This document shows, one piece after another, positions 2,069 through 32,329 of a stretch of 32,915 nt of DNA. Below the pieces are notes generated by a model, which saw only the letters and a list, made by a program, of their open reading frames with translations, had not been told where the DNA came from and made no database searches. Origin of the DNA: Bacillota bacterium (GTDB lineage: Bacteria; Bacillota; Sulfobacillia; Sulfobacillales; Sulfobacillaceae); assembly GCA_021841025.1 (NCBI GenBank), contig JAKBWA010000098.1:1-32915 (forward strand). The letters are read 5' to 3'. Positions within the stretch are counted from its first letter, which is position 1; every line of letters begins with the position of its first letter. The position numbers and the translations under genes are program-made.

Positions 2069-4378
2069 CTATGGAGTTCCTGCGATTGTGATGGACAAGG
2101 GGAGACTTTTCAACCCACTGCCATTCGTTATGGTTACCGTAGCTTTTCCGGAATTTAGATTGGGTTCAAAGCGGTTATCAATGGCTTCTTTGTTGGTGGG
2201 AATCATAAAAGACACTTGAGAGTTTGACCAATGCAGAATTTTAATCGGATAATAATCCCCCGGCGCGCCGTAATTAACCGTGCCTTGACTGACTTCCACA
2301 TAGCCCTTGCGTTGTTGCGAGCCGAAGCCCGAGCCGCTGAGAGTGACAACTTGGCCAGGGGTAACCGGTAAGGCCGTTTGTATTGCGGCTGGCAAGTGTG
2401 GCGGAGATGTAATACTCAACGACAGTGGCGCTGTGCTTTGTTGGGTTGCTGTGACAATTTGGAGTGATGCGGGACCTGGTGTGAGGGCAGGGCCCGAAGT
2501 GCCGTCAGGAATCTGTACCTGGACTTGAGTATTGGTCCAATGAACAATATGGACTTTGTAAACGTCAGATGGAGATCCATAATTGACGCCGTTTTTACTG
2601 ATGAGAACATAACCGGCACCCTCTTGGCTGCCGAAATGAGATCCCGAGATCGTGACGATTTGTCCGGGATAGACGTGGGCCGAAGGGGTGATAGACGCCG
2701 TAAGATGAGCGGTTGACACGATCGTTACGGGGATGGTGGAAGAAACCACACGGTGAGCGGTTTCGACGAGGATTTGGGCTGTTCCGGGGCTAAGAGCCGG
2801 TCCCGAACTGCCGCCGGGAATGACAAACTGGATTTGATGAGGGGTCCAGGATTTTATTGACACCCTATAAGCATCTCCGGGCCCTCCATAATTGGTTCCG
2901 TTTTGGCTGATGATTACATGGGAGTGGGCTCCTTCATGGCCGAAACCCGTTCCCGATAGGGTGAGGGTTTCACCGGCGAAACCCTTCAAGGGTTTTTGAA
3001 TCTGCGGCACATTGGCTTGATATGTTGATGAGCTTCCCTTCATATCCATTGTGATCTGAAGATCAGATCCTGCCACAGACTGATTGTGATACACCTGCAT
3101 CGAGGCGGGAAGGATTTGGCCGGATCCGTGAGAGAGGGGTAAGGTCTCGGCCTTTGTGCTGGTATTGATGGCAAAGATGTGTGATCCTTGCGCTGAGGTG
3201 ACTTGCCCCACGATCATTTGGGACGTAGCCCATACAGACAAATGGCTTGCGGGGCCAATAGCTTGCATGAATTGGGATAACGCCACGGCCGAGGGATAAA
3301 AAGCGTTCATAGCCAACTCGGGGCTTTGGCCGTCTCCGGCTAAAGCAAAGAGTCCATAGGGTTTAGAAGAATTTGTGGCCACAGGCCATGATGAACTGGC
3401 CACATGGGCTTGCCCGTCATAGCTCCAAATGAAGAGTTTGCTGGCCCCCAAAGCCCGCCAAAGCATGGCGCTTTCAACCATCGCGGCTCCATAGACCGGT
3501 TGAGTGGATTGGGGCCCGGGTTGTCCATAGGGATTGAATTCGGTGACCCAGGTTTGAATGTTTGCGGCATAATGGGGGGAGACATTGGCGGTGATTTCTG
3601 TCTGAACAAACTGCATAGCCTGAGCAATTTCGTTGGGCAAGCTGGCCAACAGTGCTTGATTGCTCAGCGTGTGTTGATTGGGATAATCATGAATGCTGAC
3701 AAAATTGATGTAAGGTCCGTCTTCACGCAGAACGGTCTGATCCCACTGGAGACTGTTAGGGCCCTGGCCGAGGGTAAACGAGACGCCAACTTTCATGGCC
3801 GGGTCAATACGGTGAATCGCTTGGGCAATCAAAGCCGACTGATGGGCATAGTACTGCGGAGAAAAAGACGGATTGAGATTGGCATAGTGATCCCATGCCC
3901 CGTACTCTTCGCTGCCGATCACAATGGCGGAAATGGGCAGGTGATGGGTGACAATGTACTGGGTGAGTTGGGCGGCATCCCCAGGCGTTCCGCCGCCGGT
4001 AAAGGTAGGGTTTTCGTCATAATTAAAGATAAATAATCCTTGATTGGCGGTAGACTGTAAGATATTCCCCCAGTCTTGCAAAGAAACCGGAGCCTTACCG
4101 CCTGAGCGAAACGAATTGGAAGTCCAGCTCCATTCATTGGCATTGGGAAATTGTTGCATGCCCAGGCCTAATTGTCTTAATGCCGGAAGAGTGGAGGGGG
4201 CATTGAGTTGATTGTCATAGGAAAAGACATTAATACCGTAATCATATCGGCTGATTGGGGCTGTGAGAGGCGAGTTGATGGGCGTTGTGGACGCACTAGC
4301 CATCGTTTGAGCACTCATCGCAATAGGCAATAATGCCGCGCCTAAACAAACAGCCAGAGTTTTCGTGAGAACGTGCAT
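2069..4378 (-). CDS. Secreted glycoside-hydrolase-like protein with three IPT/TIG-like repeats
   Basis: This is a 769-aa exported protein. Residues 1-29 form a signal peptide. Residues about 40-320 look like a (beta/alpha)8 catalytic domain of GH-A clan type: IVIGSEEYG (Glu157/158) fits the acid/base strand and WVTEFNPYG (Glu280) the nucleophile strand. Three C-terminal repeats of about 100 residues (459-554, 562-656, 664-766) share a GSGFG-type turn, an NYGxPxDxY segment, a W-T/S-N-x-Q-V/I core and a GPALxPG loop, as in IPT/TIG immunoglobulin-like modules. The substrate is unknown; cleavage or binding of the locus's own exopolysaccharide is an inference. The start at 4378 is chosen because AAGGGGG lies 10 nt upstream and the signal peptide begins there; an upstream in-frame ATG would put the terminator hairpin inside the coding region. 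A c-di-GMP-I riboswitch and terminator precede it. Confidence 0.8.
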   Translation of the reverse strand: MHVLTKTLAVCLGAALLPIAMSAQTMASASTTPINSPLTAPISRYDYGINVFSYDNQLNAPSTLPALRQLGLGMQQFPNANEWSWTSNSFRSGGKAPVSLQDWGNILQSTANQGLFIFNYDENPTFTGGGTPGDAAQLTQYIVTHHLPISAIVIGSEEYGAWDHYANLNPSFSPQYYAHQSALIAQAIHRIDPAMKVGVSFTLGQGPNSLQWDQTVLREDGPYINFVSIHDYPNQHTLSNQALLASLPNEIAQAMQFVQTEITANVSPHYAANIQTWVTEFNPYGQPGPQSTQPVYGAAMVESAMLWRALGASKLFIWSYDGQAHVASSSWPVATNSSKPYGLFALAGDGQSPELAMNAFYPSAVALSQFMQAIGPASHLSVWATSQMIVGQVTSAQGSHIFAINTSTKAETLPLSHGSGQILPASMQVYHNQSVAGSDLQITMDMKGSSSTYQANVPQIQKPLKGFAGETLTLSGTGFGHEGAHSHVIISQNGTNYGGPGDAYRVSIKSWTPHQIQFVIPGGSSGPALSPGTAQILVETAHRVVSSTIPVTIVSTAHLTASITPSAHVYPGQIVTISGSHFGSQEGAGYVLISKNGVNYGSPSDVYKVHIVHWTNTQVQVQIPDGTSGPALTPGPASLQIVTATQQSTAPLSLSITSPPHLPAAIQTALPVTPGQVVTLSGSGFGSQQRKGYVEVSQGTVNYGAPGDYYPIKILHWSNSQVSFMIPTNKEAIDNRFEPNLNSGKATVTITNGSGLKSLPLSITIAGTP

Positions 4379-4460: not shown

Positions 4461-4555
4461 CCATTTCGGCAACTGGCTGGCATTCGTCTTGTCCACGAGA
4501 AGCCCCTTTAGTTTTGCGTCTCCAGCTTTCGCTAGGTTTGCCTTTTTCGATATGG
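4461..4555 (-). promoter_or_regulatory. c-di-GMP-I (GEMM) riboswitch
   Basis: On the minus strand the aptamer core is present in order. GGCAAACC (4542-4535) is followed by a P2 stem CUAGC-GAAA-GCUGG with the GAAA tetraloop, then GACGCAAA (4520-4513), then a CUAAA segment that fits the tetraloop-receptor side of P3, and finally UGCCAGCCAGUUGCC (4482-4468), which matches the conserved 3' strand. The outer ends CCAUAUC (4554-4548) and GAAAUGG (4467-4461) pair with one mismatch to close P1. This class binds cyclic di-GMP. The output is probably transcriptional, through the adjoining terminator. Whether ligand turns the gene on or off cannot be read reliably by eye. Confidence 0.9.
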
Positions 4556-4737: not shown

Positions 4738-6402
4738 TTAGGGAGCTGAAGGTAAAATGGCATACAGCCGATAATCATTGCCTCCCGGAAAAGATTTAAT
4801 AAGGTGGGTCCATGGTTCGTGTCCGGCCCACAACCCGGGCCATGCCCGGGTGACGGCGTCGAGCTGAGCTACGTTAGCGGGCCTCGGAACAAGAAAGGCC
4901 GCGATGCGTCCTTTGGGATTATGAAGAATCGATGCAAATTTATAATCCGATGTTATGGTGAACTGATTAAGGTGCTTGGCGCGTATAATGATGGGCCAAT
5001 CAATAAAGGTATCCGCCAAAATGCTGAGGTGGGGATGGTTATTGATGTATTGTACAAGCGGTTGACCGGCATAAAAGGGATTGTTGCCCGTATACTTTAA
5101 ATTCTGGCCTTGAAAGGCCGCATCGAGAATTGAACCGTCAGGATGGCCTAGATAAGAGACTTGAAGAGTTCTTAGTGTGACAACACTGCCGGAAACAAAG
5201 ACGACACTAACGAGAAGACCGGTCCAGAACACTCGGGTTTTGGACCAAGATGGCCACCCGGAGCAAATTTTCTGGACAGCAAACGAGCCCAAGAGAATAC
5301 CGTTCGGAATAAATTCGAGAAAATATCGATCCCATTGCCCCAAATGCCCTTCGTAACAGAAGAACAGTTCCAGCAATTCCGCTCCTATGGTTCCCAAGAT
5401 GAGAATAATCCCTCGTGCGTCGCGCCTTTTGCCGAAAGAGAACCACAGCGTGATTAAGAAGGCAGGATAAATCGGCCAATAAAACAGGCCGAAGCGCACA
5501 ACGTAAAGCACAGCTCCCAAGATATGATGATCGGCCTGAGACATAGCTGGGGTCATATAGGCTCCCGTAGCCGTTTGAGCTAAATTCCCATAACTGGAAG
5601 TGAGAAAATATAGGGGGTTTTTCATGATAATCCAGTTGAAATAAATCCAAATTCCTCCCGCAAACACGATCGGTGCTCCTAACAGGATTGCGGATCCTTG
5701 TATATGAGACAATGATTTTTTGCCCCATTGTCCCAGAACTAAGGCGATAATGACCAGAAGGCCGAAAGCCACAGCCTCATAGCGCATTCCCAGGCCTGCC
5801 CCCAACCAAAAACCTGCAACAACCAAACGGCGCAGAGAACCCGTTTGGAGATAGTCGAAGAGTCCGCTATAAGTTCCCAGCATACAGGCCACCCACATGA
5901 TGTCGCTCATGCCGTTGGCTCCATAGAGGACAATAAGCGGATTCAAGGAAAAGCACAATGTCAGGACCACACGCCACCATTTGGGCAGCGATATATTTTT
6001 GAGAATATGAGCGAGATGATAAGTTGCTATTGATCCTAGCGCTGCTGATACCACTGCTCCCGCCAGACCTTTAGTCACAACAGACGGAAACCAAGGGTGC
6101 AGCGCGACAAACGGAAGCTCCAACAGGCTTGGCAATGGATTCCAAATGAATCCGATGGCGCCCAAATGCGGGTTGCGGCTAAACAACACGTAGTAGGCGT
6201 TGGCTACCCGCGATACGGCATCTCCTGCATAATAGTGCATGTCGAATACGAGATATGCCGCAAAAGCGCAATTCACGATAAATGCCGATAGGGAAATCAC
6301 AGCTTCTAGGCTTATGCGATGCATCTTTTTTGTATTGTGCCGGGATTCACGTTTTAATGATTGAGCATTCTCAATAGGACGATCAAGTATGGCACTACTC
6401 AT
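4738..6402 (-). CDS. Polytopic GT39/ArnT-like glycosyltransferase
   Basis: This 554-aa integral membrane protein has roughly ten hydrophobic helices. After the first helix it has an extracytoplasmic loop with GDAVSR, where GT39/GT83 (protein mannosyltransferase and ArnT) proteins carry their catalytic acidic residues, and GMRYEA further on. Proteins of this fold use polyprenyl-phosphate sugars on the outer face of the membrane, which fits the GT2-GtrA gene of the same locus as donor maker; that pairing is inference. The start at 6402 is chosen because AGGAGAA lies 5 nt upstream, and ATGAGTAG makes it overlap the stop of the upstream two-TM gene, implying translational coupling. A weak hairpin (cggatt / aatccg, 4706-4724) follows the stop. 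Acceptor and sugar are unknown. Confidence 0.7.
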   Translation of the reverse strand: MSSAILDRPIENAQSLKRESRHNTKKMHRISLEAVISLSAFIVNCAFAAYLVFDMHYYAGDAVSRVANAYYVLFSRNPHLGAIGFIWNPLPSLLELPFVALHPWFPSVVTKGLAGAVVSAALGSIATYHLAHILKNISLPKWWRVVLTLCFSLNPLIVLYGANGMSDIMWVACMLGTYSGLFDYLQTGSLRRLVVAGFWLGAGLGMRYEAVAFGLLVIIALVLGQWGKKSLSHIQGSAILLGAPIVFAGGIWIYFNWIIMKNPLYFLTSSYGNLAQTATGAYMTPAMSQADHHILGAVLYVVRFGLFYWPIYPAFLITLWFSFGKRRDARGIILILGTIGAELLELFFCYEGHLGQWDRYFLEFIPNGILLGSFAVQKICSGWPSWSKTRVFWTGLLVSVVFVSGSVVTLRTLQVSYLGHPDGSILDAAFQGQNLKYTGNNPFYAGQPLVQYINNHPHLSILADTFIDWPIIIRAKHLNQFTITSDYKFASILHNPKGRIAAFLVPRPANVAQLDAVTRAWPGLWAGHEPWTHLIKSFPGGNDYRLYAILPSAP

Positions 6403-6619
6403 AGGTTTTCTCCTGGGTAACGACGTGGGGAACAGTGGACGAAAGCGGCGCTGCTTTATCGCGTTTTTTATGTGAGGACAGTACTCCATAAACCACCCCT
6501 GTGCCGATAAAGAAGACTAAGGGGGCCAAGTCGATAATCCAAAAAATTCCCAACATTAATATCAAACTGGTTGCTATCATAAAGAGCGCGCCTATAATTA
6601 TGGCGTAGGGTCGAAGCAA
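6395..6619 (-). CDS. Small two-TM membrane protein, possible glycosyltransferase partner
   Basis: This 74-aa protein has two hydrophobic helices (about residues 4-24 and 28-48) joined by a very short loop, then a basic, charged tail of about 25 residues. The TTG start is supported by AAAGGAG 8 nt upstream, and the stop overlaps the ATG of the next gene. I do not recognise a named family. Its size, topology and position just after a processive GT2 gene recall PgaD, the small two-TM partner of PgaC in poly-N-acetylglucosamine synthases. That analogy rests on layout, not on sequence match. Confidence 0.65.
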   Translation of the reverse strand: MLRPYAIIIGALFMIATSLILMLGIFWIIDLAPLVFFIGTGVVYGVLSSHKKRDKAAPLSSTVPHVVTQEKTYE

Positions 6620-6677: not shown

Positions 6678-8870
6678 CTATCCATTAGATTGCAGAAATC
6701 CGGATGGCGATTGAACTTTCTTCCAGTCGACCAGGCCATGATCGGTCTTTTCCCAGTGCGAGGGTCTGGTTATAAGCTGAATGAGAGCTTTCCATGAGGC
6801 CAAAGACATCATGCTCCAGTAGATCGGGGTGAGAATGGTGTATGGCACCAAGTCCCATCGCCCGCGTTTGGCAGCGCCGACACTGTTGAGGTAAGTGAAG
6901 GCAAAATTGCCGATTAGGAGATTCATCATCCCCAGATAATAAATGCCGGGCGGGAATAGATGGGGGATAAGGCCCCAATGAGTCATAAACCATAACGAGG
7001 TGATAAACCAGTACAAAGGATTGAGGATGAACATGAGTGGAGTCCCTAAAATGGCCAGCTGAAATCCCCAGAACCCCTTGCGCCCCAGTTGCCGGCGCAA
7101 CTGGAGAGGATGGCGCATATGAACAAGCCAGGTTTGCAAGTAGCCCTTAATCCACCGGGAACGCTGTCTGATCCAATTGACAAATTCCGAATTGGCTTCT
7201 TCATAGGTTAGGGAATCGATGACAGCCGTCCGGTAGCCGACTTTGTGCAAGCGAATTCCCAGATCGGCGTCTTCGGTCACGTTGTACGGATCCCATGCTC
7301 CGATTTCTTTCAGGACGCGGGCGCGGAAATGATTCGACGTGCCTCCTAACGGAATGGGCATGTCGGCCGCATGAAGAGCCGGCAAAAGCAAGTCAAACCA
7401 CGCGCCGTATTCTGCTGTAAACCACCGGGTTAGGAGATTTTGATTCGCATTAAAATAGGACAACTTGGCTTGAACACAAGCCAGGCGACTGTCCGCTCCG
7501 CGAAAAGCTAATAGTGCCTTTTTAAGCTGAGAGGGTTCGGGAAGGTCTTCAGCATCATAGATTGTGATAAATTCTCCTCGCGCCCGCTGCAAGCCAAAAT
7601 TGCAGGCCTTGGGTTTCGTCCGCGGCTCAGCCACCGGAACTATGACGATTTCGACAAAATGGGGAAGATTGGCTTGATGGGCAGCAGCTAGTGTTGTTTC
7701 ATCGTCTTCTTCCAACAAGAGTTTGACATCTAGGCGATCACGAGGATAGTCGAGTTGCTGCAAGGCATGGGACATGATCGGCAAAACCGACGCTTCATCC
7801 CGAGCCGGTATCAAAATGGTGTAAATGGGGAGATCTGAATCTTTAAGCTTTCGTAACTCTTCGGCCGTGAATTGGACATCATTTTGGGATTGGGTGCCTT
7901 TGTGGATAATCCAAAGCCGGTGCGCCACTAAAATCGCGTACGCGAACACCACCATACTGCTTATCACCGACAGAGTGACTTGAGCATGCCATATGAGCAT
8001 GAGGGTCACAAGGATACTCGTCGCTCCAAGGGCGAGAAACTGGCCACGAGTCACGGTCCTCGTGGCAGAATTCTCTGGGCTGATGTCGAGAAGATGGGAC
8101 TTGGCGCGTTTAAGGTCTTGTTCCTGGTAATGTCGGGCCAGTTGCCAGGCAATGTCTCTTTGCCCGGTTAATGTGACGGTGATCTGTCTGTCGGTTTTGG
8201 ACGCTAAGGACATCGGCCCTTTGTTGTCAAAAGGATTCACCATTGCCACTATGATTTCCTTTGACGTGGAAGAAACGGGCACCATGCCGTATCGTCTCCA
8301 TTCTTCTTCGCTCAAAAGAGAGAAGACGGCATCAAGGCTTTGGGAATCTTGCTCTCTTGGCTCAAGGAGATCGGTTAAAGGAATGCCGGTTTGCTCACTT
8401 ATAATGGTTGCCACTTGCCAGGAATTCAGCGCATGGATTGCTACGCAGGCTTGCCCGATAGTCCCTCCCTGTTTTTGTTGAATGGTGAGAGCCTGGTCTA
8501 GGAGTTGAGGATTGAGGGCATATTTTTTGATAGCAATTTCTCCAAAGCGTGACGGGTTTTCACCCGGGGTGCCGTAAATTTTCCACTGGGCCATGAGTAA
8601 ATCACTCAACTCGGTGCGGTAGATGCGTACCGGACCTAAAGGGTCTAAGAGTGCCCACGCGGCTGGAGACAAAGGTGCGGAGGCAGCCACCCATAAACAG
8701 CCGCCTTTGCGGCAAAAAGGAAGGATGCCCATGTCCCGGGCCTGGTCGGGGCTGATAAGGAAGGCGGCGGACGGATCAATGTCGTGGCCGGGAATTGCTG
8801 CGTGATGACTACCGCTAATTAAGGCAACAGGAGGGACTTGATTCCAAAGTTCGATGGGATTGACACTCAC
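6678..8870 (-). CDS. Processive GT2 glycosyltransferase with N-terminal MshEN-type c-di-GMP module
   Basis: This 730-aa protein resembles XagB-type exopolysaccharide synthases. Residues about 108-170 match the two tandem motifs of the MshEN (GspE N-terminal) domain: RFGEIAIKKYALNPQLLDQA, then GGTIGQACVAIHALNSWQV and EQTGIPLTDL. In MshE such motifs bind c-di-GMP. Helices near 278-320 anchor the protein. The cytoplasmic GT-A domain follows (350-575) with TILIPARDE, LLLEEDD, IYDAEDLPEP, TEDADLG and QRSRW, which correspond to the D, DxD, TED and QxxRW motifs of cellulose and PNAG synthases. More helices close the protein. The GTG start has GTGAGG about 8 nt upstream. It lies between the exosortase and the two-TM gene. 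Likely role: polymerising and extruding a surface polysaccharide under c-di-GMP control. The monomer is unknown. Confidence 0.85.
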   Translation of the reverse strand: MSVNPIELWNQVPPVALISGSHHAAIPGHDIDPSAAFLISPDQARDMGILPFCRKGGCLWVAASAPLSPAAWALLDPLGPVRIYRTELSDLLMAQWKIYGTPGENPSRFGEIAIKKYALNPQLLDQALTIQQKQGGTIGQACVAIHALNSWQVATIISEQTGIPLTDLLEPREQDSQSLDAVFSLLSEEEWRRYGMVPVSSTSKEIIVAMVNPFDNKGPMSLASKTDRQITVTLTGQRDIAWQLARHYQEQDLKRAKSHLLDISPENSATRTVTRGQFLALGATSILVTLMLIWHAQVTLSVISSMVVFAYAILVAHRLWIIHKGTQSQNDVQFTAEELRKLKDSDLPIYTILIPARDEASVLPIMSHALQQLDYPRDRLDVKLLLEEDDETTLAAAHQANLPHFVEIVIVPVAEPRTKPKACNFGLQRARGEFITIYDAEDLPEPSQLKKALLAFRGADSRLACVQAKLSYFNANQNLLTRWFTAEYGAWFDLLLPALHAADMPIPLGGTSNHFRARVLKEIGAWDPYNVTEDADLGIRLHKVGYRTAVIDSLTYEEANSEFVNWIRQRSRWIKGYLQTWLVHMRHPLQLRRQLGRKGFWGFQLAILGTPLMFILNPLYWFITSLWFMTHWGLIPHLFPPGIYYLGMMNLLIGNFAFTYLNSVGAAKRGRWDLVPYTILTPIYWSMMSLASWKALIQLITRPSHWEKTDHGLVDWKKVQSPSGFLQSNG

Positions 8871-9003: not shown

Positions 9004-10629
9004 TTAGTTTGGTTTTGGGTTTTTGAGGCTCTGGCGAAAAATTTTTCCAGCCATCGCAATCAAGGTGGCACGGGTTTTCAAAAGCGTGGGATTCCAATGT
9101 CCCTGAGAAGCTGGCGCTACCATAGACTGAACCACAGACAACGGTTGCAGGGGACGGGAATGATCAAAGCCTGGAGGCAGAGACGGAGCATTATGGGGAA
9201 AGGCCGCGATTGACCAACGCATGTAGCGTTCCTGTCCATGAACCATGACAGCGTTATTCCATTCCACATCGACGTAAGTTGAACGTGGCCCTCCGACATG
9301 GTTGGGGGGAAGTTGTACGCTGTAAGCCGTGGCAATGACCCCGGGTACCAGTTGGAATGACTGCACAGCTTGTAGAGAATCGCCATGGTACAGCAAACAG
9401 GCGTGAAATCCGTATGTTGCCAGTTTGGAAGCAAAAGGCGTACTCCACATCTCCACCAGTGCCTGGCCCCCGCCTTTCTGCAAGGAATACATATCAGCCT
9501 GAGTGGCAGAACCCAGACCCAAAATAGAGGATTCATTGGCATAATAGACCGGATTTTGAACAAATCCTGTTAAACGCGGCAGAAAAGTGCGCGGATTAAA
9601 AACCGGAACGGTGGAAGGATTGCCGAATGATCCTTTGGGCAGGGAGAAGAGCGGCCACGAGAGTATAAAGATCAAGGCTGCGAAAATTGCGGCACTTCCC
9701 ATGCGTCCCCACCCGGGTTTCTTAACGCGCGATGCGGCAAGAGGAGGAACACTCAGTCCGAACGGCCGGGACAAAAGCATGAGAGATGCGACCAACATCG
9801 CGAATAGTAAAAAGCCCAGGACAGGGTGAATATCAGCAAACGTAAACTTGGGGCCGATAGTGTGGACAGAGAGCACAATGACGGCCAGACGGACCCAGTT
9901 AATAATGAGGGAGCCCAAAAGGGCAATGAGGCTGATCCCAATTTTATTGATCACCCGCCCTTTGAAGGCAAACCATAAGACGGGAATCACAATGGCAGAA
10001 CCTAAGAGGCTATCTGCGCCGCTACAGGCTTGAGCCACCACGACTAACACCGGATAGTGGTGATAGGATACCAAGAATGTGCCAAAGGGCAGCGAGGGCG
10101 CGAGCCATTTCACGTGATGAGCAAGAAGCATCAAAGATTCTACGGCCCAACGAACCAGAACATTTTGGGTGGCGTTGGCAATCGCGGCAAAAATGGGAGG
10201 CCAAACTAAGAACAGATACGTTAGGGGGGCCAAAACGGCTCTGGTGGCGGGCAAACCCCAAAAGAGCCAAGTCATGGCCAAGATCCAAAATGGCCACAAT
10301 AACAATCCGCCGTGGTCATGGACGAAAAGGGTCGGCCATCTTTCCGGAGCTAAAACCAGTGCGGCCCCAATCATGATCGCCAGCATAGCGCCTAGAATCA
10401 GATTGAGTTCTCCGTCCTCCGGCTCACTGGAATTGTTGGCCAGGATGTTCCATAGAGCCCATCCCAGAGCAATTATTGGGATCCAAATTAAATCGGCAAT
10501 CGGCGTGTCAGCCAATAAATTGTTCCATAACGGATTGGCATAAGCCAATAATGGAATTACTGAGACAATAATCCATAATAGCCAATATGCCGATAACCGG
10601 TTGACATGGTGTCGTTCAACATTAGTCAC
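9004..10629 (-). CDS. Exosortase with a C-terminal extracytoplasmic domain
   Basis: This 541-aa polytopic protein belongs to the exosortase/archaeosortase family. The catalytic triad is visible: Cys202 in QACSGADS, Arg247 in INWVRLAV and His268 in DIHPVLGF, each next to a membrane helix as in the family. After the last helix (about 315-330) some 200 residues follow that are rich in aromatic and polar residues; this is the position that EpsI-like domains occupy in fused exosortases, but I cannot confirm homology. The GTG start at 10629 is chosen for GGGGGAGG 7 nt upstream. Exosortases cleave PEP-CTERM tails and are usually found with exopolysaccharide genes; the next gene upstream encodes a candidate substrate and the next downstream a polysaccharide synthase. 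Finding one in an apparently monoderm genome is uncommon. Confidence 0.85.
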   Translation of the reverse strand: MTNVERHHVNRLSAYWLLWIIVSVIPLLAYANPLWNNLLADTPIADLIWIPIIALGWALWNILANNSSEPEDGELNLILGAMLAIMIGAALVLAPERWPTLFVHDHGGLLLWPFWILAMTWLFWGLPATRAVLAPLTYLFLVWPPIFAAIANATQNVLVRWAVESLMLLAHHVKWLAPSLPFGTFLVSYHHYPVLVVVAQACSGADSLLGSAIVIPVLWFAFKGRVINKIGISLIALLGSLIINWVRLAVIVLSVHTIGPKFTFADIHPVLGFLLFAMLVASLMLLSRPFGLSVPPLAASRVKKPGWGRMGSAAIFAALIFILSWPLFSLPKGSFGNPSTVPVFNPRTFLPRLTGFVQNPVYYANESSILGLGSATQADMYSLQKGGGQALVEMWSTPFASKLATYGFHACLLYHGDSLQAVQSFQLVPGVIATAYSVQLPPNHVGGPRSTYVDVEWNNAVMVHGQERYMRWSIAAFPHNAPSLPPGFDHSRPLQPLSVVQSMVAPASQGHWNPTLLKTRATLIAMAGKIFRQSLKNPKPN

Positions 10630-10875
10630 ATCAAGTCCTCCCCCGAAAACTCGTTGCCTAACACTCGAGCCCATGCTATGGCACGAGAGGATACTTTGAC
10701 AGTCCCTCCCACGGTCTCAAACTCAGTATCATGGCAGGGCACAGAGGATCCCTGGAGTGACTTTAGTTGTAGATTCGAGCGCCCACACAACATGGGAAAA
10801 AGAGAGAACGATTCCGAGTCACAAGAAATGAAAATCACCTGAGTAAAGGTCTTGGAATAGTAGGGGCAGGGAAAA
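10630..10875. other. Leader region ahead of the exosortase gene
   Basis: About 245 nt separate the exosortase start from the terminator of the PEP-CTERM-like gene. A minus-strand frame of 70 codons (10626-10838) ends with a TGA that overlaps the exosortase GTG, but it has no ribosome binding site and no recognisable content. I see no riboswitch core and no strong promoter. Confidence 0.4.
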
Positions 10876-10902
10876 TAAAAAAACCCGCGATGATCTCGCG
10901 GG
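10876..10902 (-). terminator. Strong intrinsic terminator of the PEP-CTERM-like gene
   Basis: On the minus strand CCCGCGA pairs with TCGCGGG around a 5-nt loop (10902-10884), followed directly by seven T and then ATTTT. It lies 17 nt after the stop at 10920 and should largely separate that transcript from the exosortase gene. Confidence 0.9.
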
Positions 10903-10919
10903 AGGGGATGATATAAGAA

Positions 10920-11441
10920 TTAGGCGCGAATTGATCGGCGCTTTATGGATATACCTAAAGGGATCAATGATAAAAGCGGTAATCCTGCAGCCCAGGGGAC
11001 TTCAGGCAATTGACCGGTGGCAAAGGCCGACTCGGTCATTTTAATCAGAACATTTGACCAGGTGTACCCTTTAGGCAATGTGATAGTGGCGGTGTATTGT
11101 CCAGTTTTCGTGACCTGGCCGGAGCTCTTTGAGAGCAGTTGGACTTGGCTGGGATTATCTTTGGGTGCGAAATACACGGACACATATTGTCCTTTCGTTA
11201 ATCCACTCCAAGTCCACGTCGCTGTTCCTGTTGTTGAGCTGGTTTCAGTAATGGTAATCGTTCCACTACCATTAACATTGGCCACAATGGACGAGTGTAG
11301 CAGGCCTAGCGCTGGGGCTGGTGCAGATATTGTCTTTTGGGTCGCTGGGGTTGTAGCCATGGAAGATCCACTCGCGCCTAAAAGCAGCGTGCTGGCAATT
11401 CCCACGGATCCCATGACGCGCCAAATTGCAGTCAATTTCAT
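10920..11441 (-). CDS. Small secreted protein with PEP-CTERM-like sorting tail
   Basis: This 173-aa protein has a signal peptide (residues 1-30), a Ser/Thr/Gly-rich beta-type middle with no Cys (about 50-140), and a tripartite C-terminus: PEVPW at 146-150, a hydrophobic helix (151-166) and a basic end, KRRSIRA. That is the layout of PEP-CTERM proteins, the substrates of exosortases, and the exosortase gene is next. PEVPW is not the most common form of the motif (usually a VPEP-like core). A sortase-type signal is less likely, because the LPEVP segment lacks the Gly of LPXTG. The ATG has AAAGGAA about 8 nt upstream. Likely role: a small abundant surface or matrix protein processed at Glu147-Val148 or nearby; this is inference. 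Confidence 0.75.
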   Translation of the reverse strand: MKLTAIWRVMGSVGIASTLLLGASGSSMATTPATQKTISAPAPALGLLHSSIVANVNGSGTITITETSSTTGTATWTWSGLTKGQYVSVYFAPKDNPSQVQLLSKSSGQVTKTGQYTATITLPKGYTWSNVLIKMTESAFATGQLPEVPWAAGLPLLSLIPLGISIKRRSIRA

Positions 11442-11653: not shown

Positions 11654-11716
11654 CCTTGAGAAAATATTGGGTAAAATTCCGGAAATGATCCGATGAAGTG
11701 GGAAGGATGTTACGAT

Positions 11717-13471
11717 ATGTATTCGTTTGTATCAGGGGCGTTGGGGCACAAAGAGGATAATAGCCAGGGGCTTTGTCCGTGGTCAGAGAAAGATATCTCA
11801 CAGATGGCCGATTTACCTTGGCAGGCTATTACGGATCGTGCTTTGGCCTTATGCGCCGCCGAGACCAAACGCAGTAACTCCAGAGAAAATGCGGGAAAAC
11901 AGTTGGCAAATCTTCGTGAACAGACTTTAGTGGCATTACGAGAAGTGTGCGAAAGGCTTCGAAACGCTCCGGCATCCCCGGACTGGCGATTACCCTCGCG
12001 AACGGACGCACTGACTTCTTATACTAAAGCCCGTCGATCCATTGATGAAGGACTCCAGGGATATTGGTTGATACTGTCGGCGACTATTGATGAATTATTC
12101 GCCTCGCAAAAACCTGCTTCTGTGATTCAAGAGTATCTGAAAACCTTGTTTAAACGGGTGTTGCTGGAGGTTTATCTAACGGGTTCCCATCACCTTTCTG
12201 ATTTTATGTTTCGTGATGTTGTCACTTTTAGCGCCAACCGTTTGGCCACGCAATTACGACTGGAGGCGCTTTTAGCACAAAAAAGCCCCTTTGTGTTGAT
12301 TTCTGCTGATTTAAACGGTTTCAAAGCTGTCAATGACACCTATGGGCATGCTGCTGGGGACAGTGTTCTGAATGTGGTGGCGCAAAGATGGCAGAGGTTA
12401 TTGCGACCCTCTGATTGGATGGGCCGGTGGGGAGGCGATGAATTCGTATTGATTTTGTCCAATCCCTTAAGCGCTAAAGCCGTTGTGGATTTTGGGAACC
12501 GCATTCGCCAAGCTTGTGAAGAACCGATCGCGTTGGCAGAGATTGACCGGGTTACCGTGTCTTCTTCCTATGGATATGCCCGCTATCCCGAAGAAGGTGA
12601 GGACATCGAACAAATCCTGGCGGTAGCCGATCAGAGACTTTATTTAGCCAAACAATTCTTGGCAGGGGGTGTTGATTCAAGCCGGGTCGATATTAGTGAG
12701 AGCACTAAATGGTCGGAGCGTATCCAAACGGCCCTAAAGACCAACCGTATTGATGTGTACTACCAACCAATTTTGCATAATGATGTGAATGTGCCATTCC
12801 AATGGGAAGCCCTGGTCCGATACCGGGACATAAACGGACAAATGCATTATCCCTCCGAATTTTTACCCGTTCTTCCGCCGGATGTTGTTCAGCAAATGGA
12901 TCAAGCCGTTATTGGCCGTGTGTTTGAAGATGTAAACCGCTGGCGTTCACGAAATCACCGTTTTAGGGTGGCCGTCAATGTTCATCCTTCCGATCTGGCC
13001 GCAACCCAGTGGAAAACACATTTAACCCGCTTGCATGATGAATTTCCTTTAGTGCTGCCCCAAGATATTACCTTCGAGGTGCGAGAATCTCTGACTGACA
13101 AGGGAGGATACCACATCATGGAATCGCTTCGCCATTTGCAGCACCAGGGATATCAAATTGCTCTGGATGATTTTGGTACGGGCACTACTCCTTTGCATGG
13201 ACTGCACAAGATGCCCATAAATTCCGTTAAAATCGATTTCACGCTGACAAGACAATGGGGGTCCGACGCAGGTCGGCGACTCATTCGGTCTGTCATTGGG
13301 TTGGCGACGTCCATGGGGTTGTCTGTCATTGCCGAAGGCATAGAGAGTCAGACACAACAAGACCTCTTAAGTCAATGGGGCTGCCAGGCCGGGCAAGGCT
13401 GGCTTTACACCGAGGCTATACCCTCTGCGGAAGTAGAAGGATGGACATTCCCCAGCCATGTCGTCAAGTGA
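11717..13471 (+). CDS. GGDEF-EAL protein (diguanylate cyclase / c-di-GMP phosphodiesterase)
   Basis: This 584-aa cytoplasmic protein has three parts. Residues 1-185 are mostly helical and match no domain I recognise. The GGDEF domain (190-320) has SADLNGFKAVND, an intact GGDEF at 239-243 and an inhibitory I-site RPSD at 230-233, exactly five residues before it. The EAL domain (335-575) keeps the catalytic set: Glu364 of EALVRY, Asn421 of VNVHPSDL, Glu454 of FEVRES, Asp484-Asp485 of DDFGTG, Lys505, Glu540 of AEGIES and Gln560 of GQGW. Both activities may therefore be possible, with product inhibition of the cyclase. The start at 11717 is chosen for GGAAGG 10 nt upstream; an ATG 24 nt earlier has no such site. 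The gene is divergent from the exosortase/polysaccharide block and is an obvious candidate to set its c-di-GMP level. Confidence 0.92.
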   Translation: MYSFVSGALGHKEDNSQGLCPWSEKDISQMADLPWQAITDRALALCAAETKRSNSRENAGKQLANLREQTLVALREVCERLRNAPASPDWRLPSRTDALTSYTKARRSIDEGLQGYWLILSATIDELFASQKPASVIQEYLKTLFKRVLLEVYLTGSHHLSDFMFRDVVTFSANRLATQLRLEALLAQKSPFVLISADLNGFKAVNDTYGHAAGDSVLNVVAQRWQRLLRPSDWMGRWGGDEFVLILSNPLSAKAVVDFGNRIRQACEEPIALAEIDRVTVSSSYGYARYPEEGEDIEQILAVADQRLYLAKQFLAGGVDSSRVDISESTKWSERIQTALKTNRIDVYYQPILHNDVNVPFQWEALVRYRDINGQMHYPSEFLPVLPPDVVQQMDQAVIGRVFEDVNRWRSRNHRFRVAVNVHPSDLAATQWKTHLTRLHDEFPLVLPQDITFEVRESLTDKGGYHIMESLRHLQHQGYQIALDDFGTGTTPLHGLHKMPINSVKIDFTLTRQWGSDAGRRLIRSVIGLATSMGLSVIAEGIESQTQQDLLSQWGCQAGQGWLYTEAIPSAEVEGWTFPSHVVK

Positions 13472-30030: not shown

Positions 30031-30352
30031 ATCAAGTCAAATCTAAGAGATTAACAGTGCACTGCAACCGATGAAAGGCTGTTGTGGTGCCATATAGTGC
30101 ACATTGACTGCGGGAGGTCTTTAACTCTAGTAACATGCAGCCCTACAGCATGAGCCAAGATGGGGAGGGAGAAAAAGGGGAGCTAATAAGCGCTTATGGC
30201 TTTGAGGCTCCAGTTCTTATCTCTAATTAACTTGGAGAAACTCAATCTCTAAAATTTTTCAAAAATTTTAGAGGATTTTAAGATAACACCTCGAATATTA
30301 CACAATATACCAATTTGTCAAATGATATGAACTACATAAATTGGAGAAAATA
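30031..30352. other. 322-nt leader region before the diguanylate cyclase
   Basis: No gene is supported. It holds a nested inverted-repeat structure at about 30057-30102 (outer arms gtgcact and agtgcac, inner caac and gttg), and the perfect 13-bp palindrome at 30247-30273. The sequence after 30230 is strongly A+T-rich. I looked for the c-di-GMP-I riboswitch core and did not find it, and no promoter is clear enough to call. Confidence 0.5.
30247..30273. repeat. Perfect 13-bp inverted repeat upstream of the diguanylate cyclase
   Basis: ctctaaaattttt and its exact reverse complement aaaaattttagag are separated by a single C. In RNA it could form a terminator-like hairpin with a T-rich 3' side only in part; as DNA it is a candidate operator. 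It ends 79 nt before the start codon at 30353. Confidence 0.6.
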
Positions 30353-32329
30353 ATGAGTGCCTATTTAGCAGGGGACCGTCACGATGTCAATGATGTAATT
30401 TGGGCAATACGTACTTTGGAATGGACAATTGGGGCCATTTTCGCAGTATTTATACCGTTTCGCTGGATTATATGGGCGGTGGCCGCTCTTTACTGGAGCA
30501 TTTCTCTATGGATTAAGAAACATCCCAATCCGCCATATGCCCAAAGACTCTTGCGGTTGAATCAAACCATGATTCTTGTGGATATCGTTCTTCTCTCTTT
30601 AGTGGTGAGCGTTACCGGCGAACTTCATAGTCAGGTTTTCATTCTTTATTCCGTCGAACTTCTTTTTCTGGCGATATATTCGTCTATCTTTTGGTCACTA
30701 TGGGGAATTGCGGCTATCTGGGTGAGTTATGGGCTAGCCTGTGGGGATTGGATGAATCCGGAATTGTGGTGGCGGGAATTTATTTTGGGATTTATTGGCG
30801 TTTCTGCAACTCTGTTAGGAGTGTCCTTACGCCATACCATTAGAAAATTCCAACAAAACAGCTTACACCTGGAACAGGTGATGGCTTTAAAGACCTTGCA
30901 GGAATCCGTGCTCAAGCTATCAAGCCTTTCAGACTCGATAGCCGCAATTTTGCAAACAGGTATTCGTTTGCTGGATACGGACGGTGGCTATGTGTGCCAG
31001 CAAACACCGACAGGCAGGCACGTGATTAGTCAAATCGGGTTCGACGTCAGCAAAGAGCGGAGTTTTTGGGAACGTTACGAATCATTGACGTTGGATCGGG
31101 GAGTGATAACCTATTATCCCCATTTAGAAAATCATGCTCATCGTCAAACATCCTTTGGACTACCGGATCCCAAGACGCGGGAACTGATCTTGATCCCTCT
31201 GCGAGACCAAGAGGCGATTATCGGCATTATGGGATTTACGAGGAGCCAGAAAAAACCACCCTTGAGTGATCGTCGAGTTATTTTGGAAGGTCTGGCCGAA
31301 ATGGTAGTCAATCAAATACGTTTCGAAAAGGCTCAGATCAGTGCATTAAAACGGGGGAGGCTGTTGGCAGTTCTGGAACGGGTTGGACGAATCGTGAACT
31401 GTAATCTTGAAATGAGCACACTTTTGCGGTCTTTGCACCAGGCTTCAGCAGAAGAATTAGAAATTGATTCCTTTTTTGTAGCACTAAGTGTTCCCGATGA
31501 CCCTTCGAAAATTCTTATGCAATATTTATTTGATGATGGGAAAGAATATGCTCCGGAAATCATGGATGTCGGAGCGGGCGCGCCTACGGAACATGTGCTG
31601 ACAACACAAGAGCCTCTATTGCTTAATGGCAGCATGGATTCATCGCAACCAACCGGTTCGTTCCGGATTCCCAAGAGTGCCATTATTGTCCCTTTGATTC
31701 GAGAAGGACAAGTCATTGGCGCCATGTCTGTGCAGTCGTATCGCATTTCTTATGATGAAGACCATATGGAGTTCGTATTGTCTGTGGCTTCACAAGCGGC
31801 TATCGCCATTAAGAATGCGCAATTATATCAACAGACGGAGTCTATCGCCTTGACCGATTACTTGACACATTTGGGTAATTCACGTCAATTTTCCGTCATG
31901 TTGCAAGAGGCTGTAGACTATGCGTCAAGTACCGGATCGTCATTGTCTTTGCTTTTGATCGATTCAGACAGCCTGAAGAAGATCAATGATCACTATGGAC
32001 ACATCGCGGGCGATGCTCACTTGCAATTTGTAGCCAATGTTATTCGCCGTAATGTCCGGAGCATGGATACAGCTTGCCGGTATGCGGGTGACGAATTTGT
32101 CGTGATTTTACCCGGAGCCCATCTTGATGAGGCGGTGACGGTAGGAGAACGCATCCGGCGTGAAATGGACGGAAAATTTGCTTGGAATGATTCGATGATC
32201 GGCACCACTGTCAGCGTTGGAGCAGCGGAATTTTTCGTTCCCATGACGACGGAGGAATTATTCACAGCAGCTGACCGTGCGATGTACAGTGCTAAACGAG
32301 GAGGGAAAAATCGTGTGGCTGTGTCCTGA
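30353..32329 (+). CDS. Membrane GAF-GAF-GGDEF diguanylate cyclase
   Basis: This 658-aa protein starts with about five to six hydrophobic helices (residues 15-165), followed by a short coiled linker, a GAF-like domain (about 190-325), a second GAF domain (about 345-490, with AIIVPLIREGQVIGAMSVQS) and a GGDEF domain (495-658). The active-site motif is AGDEF (578-582), a variant found in working cyclases, and IDSDSLKKINDHYGH supplies the metal and substrate residues. An inhibitory I-site RSMD (569-572) lies exactly five residues upstream. It should make c-di-GMP from two GTP in response to signals read by the membrane or GAF domains. The ATG at 30353 follows TTGGAGAA; the TTG inside that site is not the start. 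It could feed the riboswitch and MshEN glycosyltransferase at the other end of the window. Confidence 0.9.
   Translation: MSAYLAGDRHDVNDVIWAIRTLEWTIGAIFAVFIPFRWIIWAVAALYWSISLWIKKHPNPPYAQRLLRLNQTMILVDIVLLSLVVSVTGELHSQVFILYSVELLFLAIYSSIFWSLWGIAAIWVSYGLACGDWMNPELWWREFILGFIGVSATLLGVSLRHTIRKFQQNSLHLEQVMALKTLQESVLKLSSLSDSIAAILQTGIRLLDTDGGYVCQQTPTGRHVISQIGFDVSKERSFWERYESLTLDRGVITYYPHLENHAHRQTSFGLPDPKTRELILIPLRDQEAIIGIMGFTRSQKKPPLSDRRVILEGLAEMVVNQIRFEKAQISALKRGRLLAVLERVGRIVNCNLEMSTLLRSLHQASAEELEIDSFFVALSVPDDPSKILMQYLFDDGKEYAPEIMDVGAGAPTEHVLTTQEPLLLNGSMDSSQPTGSFRIPKSAIIVPLIREGQVIGAMSVQSYRISYDEDHMEFVLSVASQAAIAIKNAQLYQQTESIALTDYLTHLGNSRQFSVMLQEAVDYASSTGSSLSLLLIDSDSLKKINDHYGHIAGDAHLQFVANVIRRNVRSMDTACRYAGDEFVVILPGAHLDEAVTVGERIRREMDGKFAWNDSMIGTTVSVGAAEFFVPMTTEELFTAADRAMYSAKRGGKNRVAVS

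Follow-up and report, generated by a model that had tools for sequence, protein, structure and literature searches.

An exosortase and its putative C-terminal sorting signal, PEVP-CTERM, in the Sulfobacillus order

The 32,915 nucleotides analysed here, referred to as the window, make up contig C116 of a draft genome (3.39 Mb, 118 contigs, about 97% complete). On its minus strand, a cargo gene, an exosortase gene, an MshEN glycosyltransferase, a PMT_2 glycosyltransferase, a c-di-GMP-I riboswitch and a TIG-domain gene follow each other in the order of transcription (Table 1). The N-terminal part of the TIG protein resembles, by eye, a glycoside hydrolase, and a second diguanylate cyclase (GGDEF) gene is found in the window at 30341-32329. 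A search of a plasmid collection gave no match. Among named relatives, the same exosortase occurs in Sulfobacillus and in Bacillota MAGs. As an Omp85 gene was found in none of 42 genomes of the Sulfobacillus order, by a search that was positive in 7 of 14 control genomes, the host cells are, judged by gene content, almost certainly monoderm, and the 'Gram-positive-like' character that a preceding sequence-only reading had given to the genome holds.

Table 1. Features of the exosortase locus, in positions of the window
Feature	Position	Strand	Basis
Secreted multi-TIG-domain protein behind the riboswitch, ATG 4378, no PEVP tail	2069..4378	-	PF01833 43.7 bits; signal peptide MHVLTKTLAVCLGAALLPIAMS
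c-di-GMP-I riboswitch	4465..4552	-	RF01051 71.9 bits, cut-off 35
PMT_2-type membrane glycosyltransferase	4738..6489	-	PF13231 35.9 bits, cut-off 26.1; conserved in neighbourhood
Family-2 glycosyltransferase with N-terminal MshEN (c-di-GMP-binding type), next after exosortase	6678..8870	-	PF13632, PF13641, PF05157 above cut-off
Exosortase gene	9004..10629 (GTG start; longer ORF to ATG 10674, 556 aa)	-	PF09721, TIGR04178, start signals
Soluble C-terminal domain, about residues 355-556, predicted outside the membrane	9004..9612	-	AlphaFold2 model
Catalytic His, H283 (ATG form) = H268 (GTG form), in DIHPVLG	9826..9828	-	Invariant, 17 aligned relatives
Catalytic Arg, R262 = R247, in NWVRL	9889..9891	-	Invariant, 17 aligned relatives
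Catalytic Cys, C217 = C202, in QACSGADS	10024..10026	-	Invariant, 17 aligned relatives
Intrinsic terminator-like hairpin between cargo and exosortase, CCCGCGAGATCATCGCGGG-TTTTTTTATT	10884..10902	-	Also in L126, L127
Cargo protein, 173 aa: signal peptide, Ig/FN3-like beta-sandwich, PEVP tail	10920..11441	-	Translation, model, conserved family
Putative sorting tail TGQLPEVPWAAGLPLLSLIPLGISIKRRSIRA	10923..11018	-	Tail-profile match E 1.4e-15
Cargo signal peptide, about residues 1-29, MKLTAIWRVMGSVGIASTLLLGASGSSMA	11355..11441	-	Translation
GGDEF-EAL protein, divergent from the cargo gene	11693..13471	+	PF00990, PF00563 above cut-off; homologues in many relatives' loci

The exosortase exceeds the cut-offs of both superfamily profiles, PF09721 of Pfam (52.8 bits, cut-off 25.7) and TIGR04178 (40.2 bits, cut-off 23), and PF09721 matches all 17 relatives scanned. 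Because GTG 10629 has a good Shine-Dalgarno sequence (GGGGGAGGACTTGAT-GTG; GGGGGAGG), numbering from this codon is probably right, and the invariant triad then consists of the very residues named beforehand, Cys202, Arg247 and His268. In an AlphaFold2 model (mean pLDDT 80.5), a helical membrane part extends to about residue 344, and the catalytic Cys sits at the beginning of a helix that follows a beta-hairpin. With the membrane helices positioned by this model and their sidedness taken from the positive-inside rule, the charged loops suggest an outward-facing position for both the triad and the soluble C-terminal domain. This domain, modelled with strands at 371-491 and a helix at 529-550, has no Pfam or NCBIfam match, and its resemblance to the best fold neighbours, Mog1, PsbP and DcrB (Z up to 8.5), is weak to middling; EpsI (TIGR02914 / DUF3485) is not supported by sequence as a candidate for it, with no profile match at E <= 1 among 17 members. 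Foldseek with the exosortase model returned nothing at E <= 0.001, and a sequence search against solved structures gave no match. While above the superfamily cut-offs, the window's enzyme stays far below the respective cut-off of each named subfamily model compared (XrtA, XrtV, XrtG, XrtD, XrtW and archaeosortase C).

The translation of the neighbouring gene ends exactly as had been read, in PEVPW, 16 hydrophobic residues and KRR. Its model comprises a signal helix (4-22), strands (51-137) and a C-terminal helix (149-172), with a pLDDT of about 90 over the core, and PEVP lies in a loose linker directly ahead of the C-terminal helix. The fold is Ig/FN3-like (Z up to 7.5), a likeness too weak for a family name, and Foldseek with the cargo model found nothing at E <= 0.001. 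Compared with locus L009, 4 of the 32 tail codons carry amino acid-changing and 13 carry silent differences, with 33 changing and 34 silent among the 111 codons of the body. The sequence-only reading had made its proposal depend on conservation of the tail in orthologues, and this is what we find in relatives: the amino acids are kept and the codon changes are mainly silent. As a terminator-like hairpin lies 3' of the cargo gene, the cargo may be produced at higher levels than the exosortase.

How far does this tail extend beyond a single protein? Since the degenerate DNA pattern PE-x-P-x-A is unspecific, giving 42 matches vs 15 when reversed, we used a tail profile instead, which was built from 17 tails and searched over the 42 genomes. 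The tail is present in 25 of these at E < 1e-5, mostly at sites outside the profile's input. A common end of 30 residues, G-Q-L-P-E-V-P-[WY]-A-A-x-L-P, is found on 78 proteins of the order, this being the number of distinct tail proteins analysed out of those fetched. The core residues P, E and P each occur in 76-78 of the 78; A at +5 and P at +9 recur in 75 each, G at -3 in 66 and Q at -2 in 63, while +4 is occupied by W in 38 tails, by Y in 25 and by L, V or F in most others. The last 14 residues have a net charge of at least +2 in 76 tails, and by a simple hydrophobicity score 66 of the proteins have a signal-peptide-like start. The motif is thus distinct, as had been proposed, but it is this longer stretch, and not PEVPW alone, that constitutes its fixed part. 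After removal of tail and signal peptide, 71 cargo bodies fall into 27 clusters without detectable similarity between them, which argues for a portable signal, and not for the ancestry of one protein; judged by sequence, the tail serves as a sorting signal. Of ten cargos sampled, none could be given a convincing function from Pfam, as is likewise the case for PEP-CTERM proteins elsewhere (PMC12188702). Nor is the enzyme 'dedicated' to its neighbour, as had been supposed, given that most genomes with the enzyme have 2-7 tail proteins; a cultured relative, Sulfobacillus thermotolerans Kr1, has five tail matches.

The window's own genome, G000, contains four tail-profile matches at E <= 1e-12, scores that are partly given by construction because all four are rows of the profile, and the next best match is no better than 0.26; two of the four had first been detected via weak similarity (E 0.009 and 0.036). 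Tail counts within this genome are uncertain, because it is a draft and has contigs in common with Sulfobacillus benefaciens AMDSBA1: the whole 35 kb of contig C106 (1-35484) and 17.5 kb of C92 (1123-18653) are 99.7-99.9% identical to AMDSBA1 contigs. The two genomes are classed as different species despite these near-identical contigs, with bin contamination or a shared assembly as the probable reason; loci L174, L175 and L180 lie on the stretches in question. The native cargos would be that of the window and, probably, one on contig C26. A second exosortase copy on C106, 79% identical, was considered as a sign of two systems and rejected, since the near-identity of C106 and C92 points to shared or misbinned contigs. 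In L180 (G000:C92:9006-9104) and L209 (G001:C95:111554-111652), the tail matches lie in short frames, one with an internal TGA; these are possible pseudogenes or frameshifted cargos.

The exosortase gene is present in 24 of the 42 genomes, on which its own profile and PF09721 agree. Tails occur in 22 of these 24 genomes vs 3 of the 18 without the enzyme (p = 9e-7, an optimistic value because the test takes related genomes as independent), and the pattern persists within family f1, which contains genera with and without the enzyme. In most loci, no more than 1.8 kb separates the exosortase gene from a tail gene, which usually directly precedes it. Two genomes of one genus, G027 and G028, have an exosortase and no recognisable PEVP tail. 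In both, an opposite-strand gene adjacent to the exosortase (L136:5419-6837(-), L137:5417-6079(-)) ends in ...VPHAGGSSLRILAGIILVGFVMWFWYRSRSLTSSR, with a helix and a basic end without PEVP, and may be unrelated or else a cargo whose signal has changed. Tails without a detected exosortase occur in three genomes. The tail gene of one, G024, is of the enzyme-adjacent type, with 366 bp left to the contig end at the expected exosortase position; in the others, G017 (L186, contig C81) and G023 (L187 and L188), either the exosortase gene sits in a gap of the assembly or the tails are without a partner enzyme.

Besides the long enzymes, which pair with PE[V/L/F/A]P tails, there are short exosortases without the C-terminal domain, which form a clade with 100/100 support; the four that we examined, from a small group, pair with PETPYA or PQTPYA tails. 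On present sequences, this pairing supports a distinct recognition code. The idea that the enzyme has its own recognition signal is supported by adjacency, by co-occurrence, by unrelated cargos with a common tail and by a separate clade with a different motif. Genome G045 provides a natural test of two codes, as it has both a long exosortase, paired with a PEVPW tail (L225), and a short one, paired with PQTPYA (L224), each beside its own tail gene. A short exosortase with a PETPYA tail is also seen at L148, on a contig labelled Alphaproteobacteria, which is probably a misbinned Bacillota contig.

What can be concluded about the function of this locus? Very probably, it encodes a working exosortase sorting system of a monoderm acidophile, with a C-terminal signal of its own, which we call PEVP-CTERM, and with cargo that is fixed on the surface. 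Speaking for this are the enzyme family and its triad, the architecture of the cargo, the conservation of the tail on unrelated cargos, the co-occurrence, the gene neighbourhood and the c-di-GMP elements. For cleavage, acyl intermediate, acceptor and the regulation of sorting, we infer the following course. The cargo would be exported via its signal peptide and stall in the membrane via its C-terminal helix and basic end. The exosortase, with its triad predicted at the outer face, would recognise GQLPEVP[WY]A and cut nearby through a Cys-acyl intermediate, which we assume because of the triad and of the model proposed for archaeosortase A (PMC7157517). The new C-terminus would be handed to an acceptor, by which the cargo is kept on the surface. 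Since the glycosyltransferase neighbours are conserved, with an MshEN glycosyltransferase beside or near the exosortase in most loci that have enough flank, these enzymes probably make the acceptor, as a free or a lipid-linked glycan; alternatively, a lipid amine could serve, as has been suggested for archaeosortase A. The synthesis of the surface glycan, and hence the display of cargo, would probably be tuned by c-di-GMP, as the MshEN domain, the riboswitch and the GGDEF-EAL gene suggest. A c-di-GMP-I or c-di-GMP-I-GGC riboswitch is also found near the TIG gene in four relatives.

Exosortases have mostly been studied in bacteria that possess an outer membrane. The system described here has one membrane, a clear tag, several dissimilar cargos, glycosyltransferases next door and, in the window's species, no competing sortase, and would thus make the search for the acceptor simpler. 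It would also bring under a common label dozens of surface proteins of Sulfobacillus that lack known domains and may matter for biofilms on ores in acid. Only tentatively, as a possibility that falls short of being probable, do we combine all elements into one scenario. In it, an unnamed exosortase subfamily, seen only in the Sulfobacillus order, anchors many cargos in cells with one membrane, in some species sortase-less; its two clades would use two codes, PEVP[WY]A for the long and P[EQ]TPYA for the short enzymes, and the cargo would be joined to the glycan of the c-di-GMP-activated glycosyltransferase. If so, c-di-GMP would set how much protein is displayed.

Surface fixation has to be weighed against release. 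It is conceivable, if rather unlikely, that the exosortase acts as a peptidase and not as a transpeptidase, only trimming the cargo and releasing it to the medium as a matrix protein, so that the last step alone would differ. Present evidence singles out no acceptor, and biofilm, motility and extracellular polysaccharide have been connected with a cyanobacterial exosortase (PMC12188702), which would agree with release; by analogy, however, archaeosortase A leaves its substrates lipid-anchored (PMC7157517), and the neighbouring glycosyltransferases suggest that an acceptor exists. Far less credible is that the exosortase neighbour is incidental and that the tail either simply anchors the protein in the membrane or is read, like LPXTG, by a class sortase. 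LPEVP does loosely resemble LPxTG, the tail of one relative reaches 14.1 bits with the LPXTG model (below the cut-off of 15.9), and sortases are present in 26 of the 42 genomes of the order. Yet none was found in the window's genome, which together with six others makes seven tail-bearing genomes without sortase, and the tail, so strongly linked to the exosortase, is not significantly associated with sortase (p = 0.12). On these grounds we rejected a sortase origin of the tail, and a plain anchor would need no fixed E, V, P and +9 proline across 27 unrelated cargos.

Exosortase sorting thus remains our preferred reading, and the question becomes whether it needs a separate name. Exosortase systems are best known from bacteria with two membranes, and the sequence-only reading pointed out the present one in a Gram-positive-like genome. 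Its Gram-positive host is confirmed, and in 2006 Haft and colleagues did not find PEP-CTERM proteins in Firmicutes (PMC1569441); such a pair is not unprecedented, though, since an XrtG/Firmicu-CTERM pair accompanied by two glycosyltransferases is on record for Lactobacillaceae (PMC12854382). Could the system be a divergent XrtG/Firmicu-CTERM, already known and in no need of a name? The Gram-positive host, the Cys/Arg/His core and the gene order CTERM - Xrt - glycosyltransferases, seen in the window and its relatives, are shared, and the window's glycosyltransferase gives weak matches to XrtG- and XrtP-associated models. We nevertheless regard this as improbable, as the enzyme reaches 25 bits with the XrtG model TIGR03110, whose cut-off is 102.75, and is better fitted by the XrtA and XrtV models, and as Firmicu-CTERM membership was rejected with TIGR04145 over its cut-off in none of the 42 genomes. 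Moreover, the present system has several unrelated cargos per genome and an extra, large soluble enzyme domain, neither of which XrtG is known to have.

In the part of the literature covered, we found no description of a PEVP/exosortase system for Sulfobacillus, and a paper naming both exosortase and Sulfobacillus attributes the exosortase system to Leptospirillum only. Among the known systems, PEP-CTERM/exosortase A (EpsH) shares the signal peptide, the short P-E-(x)-P motif, the helix and the basic end, and the proteobacterial enzyme likewise lies in a polysaccharide gene cluster and serves many dissimilar cargos (PMC1569441). It differs in that PEVP is here preceded by GQL and followed by [WY]AAxLP in a cell without an outer membrane, that the XrtA model gives 30.6 of 208 bits, and that PEP-CTERM models match neither the whole cargo nor its tail; of all other CTERM models, none reaches its cut-off on the tails. 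The PEF-CTERM of methanogens has a PE-F-P-type motif, then a helix with proline, in a one-membrane cell. These features of archaeosortase C/PEF-CTERM recur here, but the ArtC model gives 16.6 of 100 bits, and PEF-CTERM membership was rejected with TIGR03024 over its cut-off in none of the 42 genomes. The adjacent glycosyltransferase resembles the c-di-GMP-activated NfrB type in joining a family-2 enzyme to MshEN, unlike which it has MshEN at the N-terminus and lies beside an exosortase. Because the XrtG, Firmicu-CTERM, PEF-CTERM and other CTERM models failed and several cargos are served, we file the system as an exosortase of an unnamed subfamily with an as yet unmodelled CTERM signal. While the principle of Gram-positive exosortase/CTERM pairs is already known, its many-cargo variant is new.
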